DNA from: Tetmemena sp. SeJ-2015
Taxonomy: Eukaryota; Ciliophora; Spirotrichea; Sporadotrichida; Oxytrichidae
DNA: 64,000 nt
NCBI GenBank assembly: GCA_027382625.1
Contig: JAJKFJ010020844.1
Location: 58,087 to 122,086 of the forward strand
Reading direction: 5' to 3'
This document shows positions 19,960 to 45,150 of the stretch, piece by piece. The notes under the pieces are model-generated. The model searched no databases. It had not been told where the DNA came from and saw only the letters and a list, made by a program, of their open reading frames with translations. Position 1 is the stretch's first letter. Every line of letters starts with the position of its first letter. A program made the translations under genes and the position numbers.

Positions 19960-22900
19960 ATGAGCATGAAAGGAATAGATATAGTGGATGATGACATCGA
20001 CGAGGAGGGACATTCCCTCGCCTCTAGTAAGCACTCCAAGCATGACCGAAAGCCAACAGGAGACGACCCATACTCAGATTGGTTACTACGAATGTATTAC
20101 ATGATGAATCAAAGAAGCATGATCGGAGTCAAGGTGGGACTTGTGGCAACACCCTTCCTACTAATCTTCCTATTCAGCATTTTCGTGTCAGCCCAAACTG
20201 CTAATGTAATCGCATTCACAGCATTCGTGGTTTCATTTGCCTTCATGGTCTACAGTGTTTGGTTACTCTGTGAAATCTTAGATAAAGATCAAGGTACAAG
20301 AGAGATGCAGGATATCAGTGATCCAATTAATCCGATTGTATCTTCATCACTTAGTCAATCATTAATTAAGGAAGGATCTGAAGGATTCTTTATAACTCAG
20401 TATGGCACAATTTTCAAATTAGCACTTGTGTGCTCTGGTCTATTGTTCCTAGTTTATCTTTCCCGTTCTCCAGCAAGTGGACAGTCATCACTCCACCTCT
20501 ACCTCAGCCCCATGTCAATGGCTTTAATTACCTCCTTTAGTTTCTTATTGGGAGCTAACTTCTCAGCCTTGTCTGGATATGCTGGTATTTGGGTTAGTGT
20601 AAGAGCAAACGTTAGAGTCGCAGCAGCTGCCAGAAAATGCTACAATGACTCCCTCTAGATATGTTTCAGAGGAGGAGCCTTCTCAGCTATCATCAACGTT
20701 GCTTAAAAATTTGAAATGCTGATAAGCAAATTTAAGGTCTTGCTTTGGCAATTTTCGGAATCTCATTCATGTTTTTGTTGATGAGCGCAATATTTTACTT
20801 CAACGCCCCAGGCGATGGCAGAGACCCACCAATCTAGGAAATCCCAGTCATCCTAGTCGGATTCGGTTTTGGAGCTTCTTTCGTTGCTATGTTTGCACAG
20901 CTTGGAGGAGGAATCTTCACTAAGGCAGCTGACGTGGGAGCAGATCTTATTGGAAAAGTTGAGCAAGGAATGCAATTATAGCTTGATATGCATTTTTTCC
21001 TATTTCTAAGAATCCCTGAAGACGATCCAAGAAACCCAGCAGTCGTAGCAGATTTAGTCGGAGACAACGTCGGCGATTGCGCAGGTCAATGTGCGGATCT
21101 TTTCGAATCTATTTCTGCAGAAATTTTATCAGCCATGATTTTGGGAGGAGCACTTGCTGAGTCAGCAGGCCTCGATTTCGAAACCAAGTCTGGCTTCATT
21201 CTTTTCCCTCTTATGGTGCACTGCCTCGACTTGGTTGTCAGCACTATTGGAGTGTACTTTGTCCGCACCAAGCCAGGTCTTCCTCACCACCGCCATGACT
21301 ATGGAGAGCTAGAAGATCCTTTGACTGTGCTAAAGCGCGGCTACTACGTGTCTTTGCTACTCTCACTCATAGGATTGTTCTTCATCTGCAAGAACTTCCT
21401 ATTCATCAGCGCCTTCCCTTCAGCTTACTTCCAGTTCTTCCTCTGCTCAGTGGTTGGAGTAATCGTCTCTTTCCTCTTCATCAAAATCACTCAGTACTAT
21501 ACTGACTACACCTATGAGCCAGTCAGAAGCATTGCCAGAAGCAGCCAGATGGGCCATGCTACTAACATCATCACCGGTCTCTCAGTCGGACTCGAGAGCA
21601 CTGGACTCCCAGTCATTACTATCTCTGTCGCCATCATTACAGCCTTCTATTTAGGAGAAAGTTGCGGCATTACTGACTCTAAGGGACAAGCAATTAAGTA
21701 AAAAAAAGTGCTTAAAATGGTTTAATTGGAGGTCTTTATGCAACTGCTATTGCCACCATAAAAGTAATTATCAATAATCTCATTTGACCCATGGGTATGT
21801 TCTCATCAGGAGTATATGTGCTCTCTATGTCAGGATTCGGACCCATCGCTGACAACGCTGGCGGTATCGTTGAAGATGTCTGGCCAGGACAGATAAGTAA
21901 GAGAGATCACTGATAGATTGGATGCAGTAGGAAACGTTACAAAGGCCAACACTAAGGGCTACTCAGTCGGTAGTGCCTCACTCGCTTGCTTCTTGATGTT
22001 CTCAGCCTACCTCGACGAAGTGGAAATGTTCACAGGTCTTGAGTTCAAGCACATCGACATCGCAGTCCCCGAGGTCTATGTAGGAGGTCTACTCGGCTCT
22101 ATGACTGTCTTCGTTTTTAGTTCTTGGGCCATTGCTGCAGTTGGTATCGCTGCAGAGGATGTGATTAAGGAAGTACGACGACAATTCAAGGAGCACCCAG
22201 GCATCCTCACCTACCAAGAGAAGCCTAACTACAAGCAGTGCGTTGCCATCGTCAACCAAGCTGGTCTTAAACAAATGATCAAGCCAGGTCTCCTCTCTGT
22301 GCTCTCTCCCATCACCGTCGGAGTTATCTTCAGAATAATTAAAGATGAATTTTTTGCAATTGAGTTGAATTGTAATTAGGGTCAAAATACACGCATTATA
22401 AGGGTTTTTCATACTGTGAGGGCGTGTTTCAGTGTGCTTCACTCACCAATGCATCCTCTAGATTTTCAATGATTTCAGCTCTGGTTAGCAAATCTCTCTC
22501 TTGTGTATTGAACTTCTGAGTAGATTCTTCCTGAGATAAAGATGAAATTGTAGAATCTGAGAAGAATTTTAAATGCGTTTCAAATACTACACATATAAGG
22601 GTTGTTGTAAGCTCAAATTGTATTGTTCTTTGGCTCTCATCTTCGGAGTTTTCCAAGAGGGCTCAGCTTTTTATTGAATTGTTGCTCTGAATTCACCATA
22701 TGTTTCAGTAAGAATCGTCCAAGTCACTTGAGATAACACTAATGCTGAGTATATCAAAGTCATAGAACTCACTGCCAGTCTTCTCCTCTACTTTTCTCTT
22801 GCTGAAGCCATCAAATTGTTGAGAAATTAGTGATTTTGCTTGTTGATGCTGTCACTTGTGTTATCCTGCTCCATCAGTGTCTTCCATTCTTAATTGCTAA

Positions 22901-24089
22901 AACCAAATTAATTTAGAAATGCTTAATTACTTTATTAATCATTGCCTTTAAAATAATTAAGAATTAGCAAACTATAATTAAGTTTCTCATTATAGTTTTT
23001 AAGATGACTAAGAAAGGTAATATTAATAGAGAAATGATTTAAGAATGGGATTAAATAATTTTGCCTTAAAACATTAAGTGTTTTAAGAATTCTTAATTAT
23101 TTTAAAGGCAATGATTAATAAAGTAATTAAGCATTTCTAAATTAATTTGGTTTTAGCAATTAAGAATGGAAGACACTGATGGAGCAGGATAACACAAGTG
23201 ACAGCATCAACAAGCAAAATCACTAATTTCTCAACAATTTGATGGCTTCAGCAAGAGAAAAGTAGAGGAGAAGACTGGCAGTGAGTTCTATGACTTTGAT
23301 ATACTCAGCATTAGTGTTATCTCAAGTGACTTGGACGATTCTTACTGAAACATATGGTGAATTCAGAGCAACAATTCAATAAAAAGCTGAGCCCTCTTGG
23401 AAAACTCCGAAGATGAGAGCCAAAGAACAATACAATTTGAGCTTACAACAACCCTTATATGTGTAGTATTTGAAACGCATTTAAAATTCTTCTCAGATTC
23501 TACAATTTCATCTTTATCTCAGGAAGAATCTACTCAGAAGTTCAATACACAAGAGAGAGATTTGCTAACCAGAGCTGAAATCATTGAAAATCTAGAGGAT
23601 GCATTGGTGAGTGAAGCACACTGAAACACGCCCTCACAGTATGAAAAACCCTTATAATGCGTGTATTTTGACCCTAATTACAATTCAACTCAATTGCAAA
23701 AAATTCATCTTTATCACTCTGATCCATTTTTAATTGGAAGCTACACCAACAGACCTCTTTTGGGAGCTCAGGTGCTAGCTGGCTTCTTGATGTTCTCCAC
23801 CAGCACTGGCATCCTCATGGCCTTGTTCTTCAACAATGGAGGTGGTGCCTGGGACAACGCTAAGAAGTACGTTGAGACTGGTGTGTATGGCGGCAAAGGC
23901 AGTGACGCCCACAAGAGTGCAGTCACTGGAGATACAGTCGGCGACCCTTGCAAAGACACTGCTGGCCCCTCTATCCATATCCTAATTAAAAACCAATAAA
24001 ACTTTAAAGTAATTCAAAAAATTAAGCTGCTATCGACAATCACTTTGGTGCTAGTTCCACTTTTCTCGGGCCAAGTTGTTTCTCAATGA
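19960..24089 (+). CDS. Membrane-bound proton-pumping inorganic pyrophosphatase (type II-like)
   Basis: This integral membrane enzyme hydrolyses pyrophosphate and pumps H+ into acidic compartments (acidocalcisome or vacuole in protists). Coding segments are 19960-20704, 20746-20971, 21014-21695, 21728-21759, 21793-21897, 21902-22340, 23736-23989 and 24026-24089; they total 2,547 nt, 849 codons, a usual length. Signature motifs are present: [30 protein letters not shown], and near the C-terminus [12 protein letters not shown] and [26 protein letters not shown] carries Lys where K+-dependent enzymes have Ala, matching the K+-independent, AVP2-like type. In the C-terminal motif Cys replaces the usual Leu/Phe in GDP-x-KDT. 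Many hydrophobic helices are visible. The gene is cut by seven IESs, all with pointers, and no segment is scrambled. As it stands the gene cannot be expressed from this DNA; it needs IES removal. Confidence 0.97.
20705..20745. other. IES, pointer TTGCTT (41 bp)
   Basis: TTGCTT at 20699-20704 and 20740-20745. Excision restores [13 protein letters not shown] of the pyrophosphatase; the insert contains stops and no splice sites. Confidence 0.97.
20972..21013. other. IES, pointer GAAT (42 bp)
   Basis: GAAT at 20968-20971 and 21010-21013. Excision restores [14 protein letters not shown], the conserved substrate-binding region. Confidence 0.97.
21696..21727. other. IES, pointer AATT (32 bp)
   Basis: AATT at 21692-21695 and 21724-21727. 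Excision gives [15 protein letters not shown]. Confidence 0.97.
21760..21792. other. IES, pointer CCAT (33 bp)
   Basis: CCAT at 21756-21759 and 21789-21792. Excision gives [15 protein letters not shown]. Only 32 bp of coding DNA separates it from the previous IES. Confidence 0.97.
21898..21901. other. Minimal IES candidate: tandem TAAG (4 bp)
   Basis: TAAG at 21894-21897 is followed directly by TAAG at 21898-21901. Deleting one copy is required for the conserved [14 protein letters not shown] frame and for the total of 849 codons. It may be an IES with no spacer, a germline frameshift, or a sequence error. Confidence 0.6.
22340..22965 (+). repeat. Left arm of 626-bp inverted repeat
   Basis: Each base p pairs with base 46053-p. 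The registration holds from one end of the arm to the other, so there are no indels, and I saw no mismatch in the stretches compared. The match stops at 22966. Confidence 0.95.
22443..22874 (-). CDS. Mirror copy of the hypothetical frame in left arm
   Basis: Identical by symmetry to the plus-strand frame at 23179-23610, read outward toward the left end of the element. Whether either copy is expressed cannot be told from sequence. Confidence 0.3.
23088..23713 (-). repeat. Right arm of 626-bp inverted repeat
   Basis: Reverse complement of 22340-22965. Together with the 122-bp spacer 22966-23087, transcription across it would form a hairpin of about 626 bp. Confidence 0.95.
23179..23610 (+). 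CDS. Hypothetical 143-codon frame in right arm of foldback IES
   Basis: Open from ATG 23179 to TGA 23608-23610 with TAA/TAG as Gln. The product is basic with no recognised domain. A second frame (75 codons to TGA at 23622-23624, last in-frame TGA upstream near 23390) is acidic and Ser-rich; its upstream part also looks protein-like ([17 protein letters not shown]) but has several TGAs. One of the two may be the remains of a germline-limited gene. The same frames exist in mirror image in the left arm. Confidence 0.3.
23990..24025. other. IES, pointer AATTAA (36 bp)
   Basis: AATTAA at 23984-23989 and 24020-24025. Excision gives [20 protein letters not shown], the last transmembrane helix of the pyrophosphatase. 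Confidence 0.97.
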
Positions 24090-43359: not shown

Positions 43360-45150
43360 TTATAGTAAATTATTGCCTTATTGACTGACAAGTGAGCATA
43401 ATAGTCTTGTTATAAATATACTCATTCTCTATATTAAGATGTATTATTCTATTTATCTTTTAACTTTCACTTCATTATAAATGCACTCGCATTTCAATTT
43501 CGAGAATATTTGAACATTAATAAATACTGCTATGAATAAGAGTTTTTTTTTAAAAATAAATTTGGTATTTAAATAAATAACTTTTGTTAATCATGCTTAG
43601 CTTTTCGTTTAATATTTTTTAATTAAATCTTTTGTGATTTAATCTTAAATTTTGATTTATGAGCTAAATTATTAAAAGTAATTGACTTAAGATTCATTCT
43701 TTTCGTTTTCTGTATTTAAAATATGTAAGTATTATAAGTAAAATCAATTGGAGAAATAACTTGCTAATTGAAGAAAAAATTAATTTAATATTAAGTTTAA
43801 TGAAAGGATATTTAAAATTTACCAATCATTAAAAATAACTAAGAATTTTTATCACTAATTTTACTATACCATTTATGCTTTCTTTGCCACTTAAATTTAT
43901 CATCAGTTATTTAAAAGAATTTTAATGTCATAAAATTAAAAAAATTAAAAATATTTTTTAAAAAAAACAAGATATTTAAATATGTATAAATATTAACATT
44001 TAACAATTATTTTTTAATTATACCTCACATTAAATGTAAAAAAAAAATATATTAATTTAAAATCTACTAAGGTTAGAAAAAATCAAATAAAAAACATATA
44101 ATATCATCATTTTAATTTAAGAGTTTACAACTGTAAAAATAAAAGTAATAATTTAAAAAATTGCAAGAAAAATTAAATATTATTTTACTCCGCAAATCTT
44201 AAAAACAAGTAAATATATTTCTATTTATAACAAATAATTTCAAACTTTGTAATTTGATCATTTCTTAAATGAAGTAAACTCATTTCTTATAAATTTTTTC
44301 CTATTTATACAAAATTTGAAGTTTAAAATTAATAAATTAAGAAATTTACATTTTTTTGTAAGTTATAAATTATCTAAAATTATTTTCGATAATTTAGACA
44401 TGTTTAGATAAATGTTTTTAACTAATTTAAAGAACAAGAAGTAACGCTGCTAATTAAATTTCACTAGTTATATATAACTAATTTTTAAGAACTATTAAAA
44501 TTTGATTGAACCTTATTTAATAATTTGTTAATATATTTTATATAAACATTTAGGAATAATAATATCTATTTAAATTTTCAGAGATTTATTTCTTTTATGT
44601 TTTCTAGGTAATTAAAGATATTTAATTTACCTTTGAATATCATCTATCAATTTCAAAAATAAAAAATAATTATACTTATATATTGTTGACTTTGCTTTTA
44701 TATATTTTAAGCTAATTATTGGCAAATTTTAATTGGTTAAGGAAATCATTATTTCCAAATATTTTTTATTTTCCCTTTTTGAAAACAAAAATAAATGGCT
44801 TTAATTATACTTTAGAATGCACATTTATATTTAAAAGTTATATCCCATTTATAAAGACTCATTTTTATAAAGAATAATTTATTGAAGCAAAATTAATTTC
44901 ATGACATACTTGAATTATCGATTAAGAGACACTCTTATTTAATTTAAATTACTAAAATCGTCTTTCATTAAAATCTGCTCAATATTAGAACTATAAAATA
45001 AAAAATCTTAGTTCAAATTAAATATTGCTAAAAATAAGCTTAATAATCTTATACGTATAGAAAAAAACTCTAAGTACGCGCAATTTAAAATATCGCAATA
45101 TTAATTTTGAACATTACTTATTACTTCTACTTATTTGTTGAAGACTCTGA
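43360..45150. other. Long AT-rich geneless stretch
   Basis: About 1.8 kb of very AT-rich DNA with dense TGA, TAA and homopolymer runs and no frame that looks coding on either strand. No telomeric, transposon-end or RNA gene signal was seen. It is probably germline-limited spacer removed between two macronuclear-destined loci. Confidence 0.6.

Follow-up and report, generated by a model that had tools for sequence, protein, structure and literature searches.

The window analysed here is a stretch of 64,000 nucleotides from Tetmemena sp. SeJ-2015 (assembly GCA_027382625.1, contig JAJKFJ010020844.1, positions 58,087 to 122,086 of the forward strand; C1924:58087-122086 in our contig numbering). 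It contains a gene for a membrane pyrophosphatase that is interrupted by a long palindrome. This palindrome is two elements, one nested in the remains of a related other. We interpret it as a nested pair of non-autonomous foldback transposons with TA targets, similar to miniature inverted-repeat transposable elements (MITEs), which would leave the gene together as one internal eliminated sequence (IES) bounded by TAATT. The probability that we attach to this interpretation is about 0.7. Comparisons were made against the whole assembly (146 Mb, 5,213 contigs).

Structure of the composite palindrome

The arms at 22340-22965 and 23088-23713 are exact reverse complements of 626 bp each, with no mismatch and no gap, around a middle of 122 bp, and the symmetry is far above chance expectation. 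The initial annotation had called the palindrome near-perfect; its coordinates (p + p' = 46053) and its statement that there are no indels hold, and the arms are in fact perfect. With the window arm as query, bases 1-198 match the foldbacks of a set A (C2579, C3586, C1752 and others), and bases 196-625 those of a different set, B (C1981, C2952, C654 and others). The A and B sets are separately complete foldbacks.

Positions 22537-23516 (980 bp) form a B-subfamily foldback that is complete, both ends included. Its insertion point is the TA in A's GAGATA motif, and A survives as the outer 197 bp on each side; the portion of A that is lost comprises about 583 bp of inner arms and loop. Query bases 1-198 are 91-95% identical to C2579, C362, C3586/C1787, C1756 and C2819, and 74-84% identical to further copies. 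By global alignment, the outer left arm shows 89-94% identity to both arms of C2579 and C3586. All 10 representatives compared, drawn from several subfamilies, have GAGATA at the same position in the arm (194 in C2579, C2123 and C1752; 197 in C3586). Counted in three A arms, TA occurs 27-36 times per arm, the one in GAGATA included. The earlier description as a single foldback IES is supported in that a long foldback probably acts as an IES, or part of one, in the pump gene; the number of elements has to be changed to two. The features are listed in Table 1.

Table 1. Features of the interrupted pyrophosphatase gene and of the nested foldbacks (window coordinates)
Feature	Position	Strand	Basis
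Pyrophosphatase coding part upstream of insertion	21900..22336	+	code-6 frame; joined protein matches membrane pyrophosphatases
Left TAATT repeat (pointer)	22336..22340	+	sequence; frame kept on removal
Outer left arm, first 197 bp of A subfamily (TA-AAGATGAA...GAGATA), plus TA common with B	22340..22538	+	matches to A copies
GAGATA motif of A, its TA being the B junction	22533..22538	+	conserved arm position
Inner B foldback, left arm	22537..22965	+	B copies C1981, C2952, C654, C2725, C1753
Loop, 122 bp, akin to loops of other copies	22966..23087	.	loop comparison
Inner B foldback, right arm, exact mirror of left	23088..23516	-	reverse-complement match
Outer right arm, mirrored A remnant, end CATCTT-TA	23515..23713	-	reverse-complement match; alignment to A
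Rest of putative older 23-bp IES (with TAAT 22336-22339 and one TA)	23714..23730	+	inferred from frame
Right TAATT repeat (pointer)	23731..23735	+	sequence
Pyrophosphatase coding part downstream	23732..23965	+	frame and joined-protein match

The pyrophosphatase was read with ciliate code 6 (TAA and TAG as glutamine); long open reading frames (ORFs) are numerous with this code and scarce with the Euplotes code. Excision from one TAATT to the other takes out 1,395 bp and preserves the frame. The joined product of 223 amino acids matches membrane pyrophosphatases over its full length (6afu_A, E = 4.5e-47), with 12 residues about the junction unmatched in the plant enzyme, and this agrees with the proposal that removal between the TAATT repeats restores the protein. 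The element proper is bounded by TA (22340 and 23713) and lies within the TAATT-bounded stretch. Its ends are TAAAGATGAA and carry no telomere-type repeat, so the view that it is not a telomere-bearing element (TBE) by its ends is upheld. Further upstream, the pyrophosphatase frame shifts at 21888-21905 near ATAAGTAAGAG, as it would with four surplus bases, which may be a tiny IES or an error.

Removal of the element only (1,372 bp, one TA kept) would leave a remainder of 23 bp, a number not divisible by three, and shift the pyrophosphatase frame. The frames on both sides agree without these 23 bp, which suggests that a 23-bp IES was already there and that A inserted in it. At other loci, codon scores around most insertions are uninformative. 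Only at C2321 are they coding-like on both sides, and there TA-to-TA removal (979 bp) gives a frame of 441 amino acids; C2123 has a frame across the join with weak codon-score support. An open frame spans the join in five of the six loci tried (C2321, C2123 and three of four others), so openness alone is weak evidence. The best frames at C679 are incompatible with TA-to-TA removal.

The foldback family in the genome

A search for further copies of the arm had been advised, and with the left arm as query at least 52 places in the assembly match. The union of family-matching contigs is at least 83, partial matches and duplicate contigs included. It combines four sequence searches (scored candidates: the best 40 of 172 for the left arm, the best 40 of 115 for the loop, 28 of 28 for the asymmetric arm and the best 40 of 112 for the A arm) with ten contigs from a 14-mer end search; a short match in C3748 was left out, and the 83 contigs are a lower bound on places. 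As foldbacks, intact copies that stand alone measure about 980 bp, with arms of 430 bp and about 122 bp of loop. They start with TA-AAGATGAA and finish with TTCATCTT-TA, or close variants of these. The terminal inverted repeats are common to many dispersed copies, and most copies read have TA at both ends (the right end of C3173 is TT).

The 14-mer end search gave 56 hits, compared to 7 for the reversed-pattern control. These hits were considered as ends of an autonomous element and rejected as such, 13 of the 20 loci read (of 56) being without a family match. A scan of these 13 loci and of L039 for inverted partners showed a partner-like site (two mismatches or fewer) in five, none of them convincing. 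Hits without a family match are read as chance or other sequence.

The set used to compare copies consists of 22 palindromic and 7 asymmetric ones. The full composite of the window and C1787 (same as C3586) were left out, as were C2819, C2720, C2512, C2394, C779, C709, C1632, C823 and C3131, which are incomplete, truncated or odd. Judged by their flanks, the pairs C679/C1720 and C3014/C3932 resemble two versions of one insertion each.

The window loop is 70-89% identical to the loops of 17 of the 21 other palindromic copies and 57-65% identical to the remaining four. Many copies with unlike arms have loops that are 80-98% alike; C1753 (B) and C2579 (A), for example, share 94%. The loops of winB (the B foldback of the window), C1981, C2952, C18 and C3421 are mostly 64-76% identical to A and C loops, and those of C2725, C2831 and C1915 are 52-71% identical to all others. 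The RNA fold of the loop is unremarkable (z = -1.74).

Identity of the arms and possible exchange between them

Over 420 bp, the two arms are identical in 9 of the 22 palindromic copies. Arm identity is at least 0.988 in 14, lies between 0.96 and 0.98 in four and between 0.79 and 0.92 in another four. The nine copies with identical arms differ among themselves by 1-45%, and an identical pair of arms is therefore not necessarily of recent origin. In gapped alignments between copies, mid-arm identity is 99% at most and 53% at least, which is as low as for unrelated arms. Copying from arm to arm would explain the identical arms, and gene conversion seems a good reading. Near-identity of the arms had been ascribed to recent origin or active gene conversion. 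The second of these gains from our comparison; the first loses, because strongly divergent copies also have identical arms. Perfect germline palindromes need not be young.

In seven further relatives the two arms are unlike, with identities of 0.525-0.60; those dissected have a B-like arm on one side and, on the other, a different sequence that we call X. A B-type arm and arm X around a common centre were observed at L032:1001-1963, L037:8040-9001 and L034:1001-1861, and the same build was found at L047:8092-9001 and L048:1001-1891. The equation of arm X with the A arm is not supported by the comparisons.

A second composite, C3421, contains a family element at a TA 13 bp inside the loop of a second foldback family. 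Its outer arms of about 290 bp differ by two mismatches and one 2-base gap. All three solo copies that were read have the 13 loop bases on a single side, and C3421 has them on both, which supports copying between the halves after insertion. The second family, Z, is TA-flanked and was observed at L064, L065 and L066 (C2760, C3474 and C3207); it is about 700 bp long with ends CCTAAGAATTTAATGCAG, arms of 280 bp and a loop of about 147 bp. A palindrome of 1,914 bp in C2720 (L022:1505-3418) has B-type outer pieces with arm positions of about 69-214 missing, and its inner part has no family match; it is a possible third composite. The inverted flanks of C3054 are gapped and AT-rich and were not used as evidence.

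A second contig of the locus, C1632, shows 98% identity over 4.7 kb including the arm, and its first 900 bp or so from the arm are identical. It begins in the loop and carries the right arm, and its loop is reversed relative to the flank. The reversed loop fits a crossover between the arms.

Coding capacity and length

Codon periodicity was absent in 25 copy pairs. Pooled pN/pS (nonsynonymous relative to synonymous change) was 0.79-0.91 in all six frames (7 pairs), with single pairs from 0.37 to 2.11, and in-frame TGA stops are numerous in most copies. No coding capacity was detected in the element. A model with two tiny divergent genes flanking a shared promoter was rejected on the same three grounds.

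Length is 980-982 bp in 14 of the 22 palindromic copies, across subfamilies, while ungapped mid-arm identity between subfamilies drops to about 0.3 (background about 0.27). With 81 offsets compared for each of the 55 pairs among 11 representatives, 33 pairs aligned best at offset 0; leaving out C3586, which has a 3-bp insertion, the figure is 33 of 45. Pairs without indels include winB and C654, which differ at 111 sites, and winB and C1981, which differ at 76. When the arms of each of the decayed copies C2725, C2831, C3401 and C1915 were compared with each other, 148 mismatches and 51 indel events were found. The fixed landmarks are the ends, GAGATA at 194, CCATT at 348 and TAATTAAGAATT adjoining the loop.

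These features raise the tentative possibility that the element is selected for shape, not sequence, in that intact lineages keep exact length, landmarks, perfect self-pairing and a related loop while their arms drift almost to the background level of identity and retain no insertions or deletions. Several results speak against a locked length. Eight of the 22 palindromic copies fall outside 980-982 bp. Between B/E and A/C/D copies (without C3586), offset 0 is best in 14 of 25 pairs with identities of about 0.3, which is only weak evidence that those arms descend from a common ancestor. Gapped alignments of distant pairs have many gaps, which may be alignment noise. If selection for shape were true, conversion would make each new arm sequence self-complementary at once, and palindromes could grow by swallowing each other. 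With elements that keep length and self-complementarity and not sequence, structure-only selection on a transposon could be put to a direct test.

Proposed origin of the composite

We postulate that the pyrophosphatase gene first carried a 23-bp IES, that an A foldback entered this IES at a TA, and that a complete 980-bp B foldback then inserted at the GAGATA TA in one A arm. The junction itself is seen in the sequence; the start in a single arm is our proposal. The half with the simple A-B junction would next have been copied over the other half, by gene conversion or by copy-back synthesis, which give the same product. This step would remove the 583 bp of A and make a longer perfect palindrome. 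Continued conversion from arm to arm would keep the arms identical, inter-arm crossovers would flip the loop, and during development the whole stretch would be cut at TAATT like the older short IES. The window would thus offer a worked case, with C3421 as a second independent example, of a short IES becoming a kilobase IES via nested foldbacks made symmetric by copying.

Several observations weigh against this history. The putative precursor (empty site) has no match in the genome within 3 mismatches, and the empty sites of C2321 and C2123 were searched for in the genome without success; without an empty site, the target duplication and the 23-bp IES are inferences. The landing of B exactly at GAGATA could be chance. 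The seven unlike-armed relatives indicate that homogenisation is not universal, or can lapse. Mirrored composites worked out number two, with C2720 left at candidate level. C1632 starts in its flipped loop, and the orientation there may reflect a choice made during assembly. An autonomous element with the family ends (TAAAGATGAAATTG) was not found, three DDE_3 transposase loci having been read.

The closest alternative is that B inserted centrally in an A palindrome already cut to 197-bp arms, with no later copying. It gives the same exact structure with a TA junction on both sides; no such shortened A is present among the copies read, and it fails for C3421, where one-sided loop bases have become two-sided. 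We consider it unlikely. One recent inverted duplication, with no ongoing conversion, would account for the zero differences between the window arms. It is improbable in view of the nine identical-armed copies that differ mutually, of the mirrored loop bases of C3421, which need transfer after insertion, and of the 22 copies, in which arm divergence does not rise in step with copy divergence. An assembly or library artefact, in which a missed adapter or a chimeric read mirrored ordinary DNA, has in its favour that some contigs (e.g. C1632 and C823) start in an arm or the loop and that polishing could wipe out small arm differences. The symmetry, however, ends at the same sequence (TAAAGATGAA or close variants) in unrelated places with most outer flanks unmirrored, the loop is conserved, and the assembly also includes copies whose arms are 80-97% alike. 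An artefact is therefore very improbable.

Two further proposals concern function. The arms might carry small genes, as ORFs running outward from the loop, with the palindrome keeping two copies. In 14 of 19 copies ATGG lies 351 bp from the end of the element, and this ATG opens a frame of 64 codons in C1981 and in C654; the codon periodicity, pN/pS and TGA results given above leave this proposal with hardly any credibility. Long hairpins feed Dicer in many organisms, and a transcript of the palindrome would make a 626-bp duplex, which might yield small RNAs steering the element's own elimination. In Oxytricha, according to the accessible portion of PMC7374600, developmental PIWI-interacting RNAs originate in the old macronucleus and label the DNA that is to be kept, and by this analogy self-directed elimination appears quite improbable.

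In the nested-transposon interpretation, a transposase would be supplied in trans, probably by a Tc1/mariner-type (DDE_3) element because the target appears to be TA. DDE_3 (PF13358) genes are abundant, with at least 150 loci (the best 150 of 921 candidates, all over the cut-off), and pogo-type DDE_1 gave one weak match. At two DDE_3 loci with in-frame TAA or TAG, the family ends are absent from the 2.6-2.7 kb read. Another DDE_3 locus, L049 (C3167), is GC-rich and bacterial-looking and has IS630-type transposase frames within the ciliate assembly.

Relation to known elements

MITEs are generally shorter than 500 bp, and the 980-982 bp of most palindromic copies exceeds this limit, so the family is MITE-like and not a strict MITE. 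Its build of about 430 + 122 + 430 bp, mostly inverted repeat around a short middle, is that of a foldback transposon. Other foldback transposons are FB and Galileo. Tec elements of Euplotes have long inverted repeats and a TA target, as the present family appears to have; they are several kb long with transposase and recombinase ORFs, unlike the present elements of about 1 kb with no coding signal, whose host uses code 6 and not the Euplotes code. TBEs are several kb long with telomeric repeats at their ends and three ORFs including a transposase. The family differs from them in its non-telomeric ends, its lack of a coding signal and its size of about 1 kb.

The published papers are compared through the portions of their text that were accessible. 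TBEs are germline elements of code-6 spirotrich ciliates, of Tc1/mariner type (PMC9797194), and our family is likewise a germline element of a code-6 ciliate. In Blepharisma, MITE-derived IESs (MITIES / BogoMITE), palindromic IESs and nested insertion have been described (Seah et al. 2023, PMC9942856). The window host differs in using code 6, and its intact single elements, with arms of 430 bp and a loop, reach about 980 bp, against about 389 bp there; Bogo is of pogo/Tigger type, for which the search here with DDE_1 gave a single weak match. For Tetris, a foldback element, homogenisation of its subrepeats has been suggested (PMC4079207). The present family shares with foldback transposons the very long inverted repeats, the lack of a conserved ORF, the modular and rearranged forms and the missing autonomous partner. 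It differs from Tetris in its probable target, TA (8-10 bp in Tetris), in the arms of the window copy, where no tandem-repeat build was seen, and in having nested palindromes made symmetric.

In two papers on spirotrich germline genomes (PMC9797194 and PMC10901763), term counts were zero for "MITE" and for "inverted repeat", and the latter paper uses "palindrom" a single time. We found no record of the family or of mirrored nested foldbacks in ciliates in a literature search that had most subscription papers outside it. The initial annotation had singled out the palindrome as the best candidate for an undescribed element; it is one copy of a multicopy family, nested in the remains of another.

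Other features of the window

In the window, no known RNA family reached its gathering score; the match to one microRNA family with long hairpins was weak and below threshold. At 43500-45000, 1.5 kb of 15-20% GC lies within surroundings of 30-40% GC and contains two short tandem repeats only.

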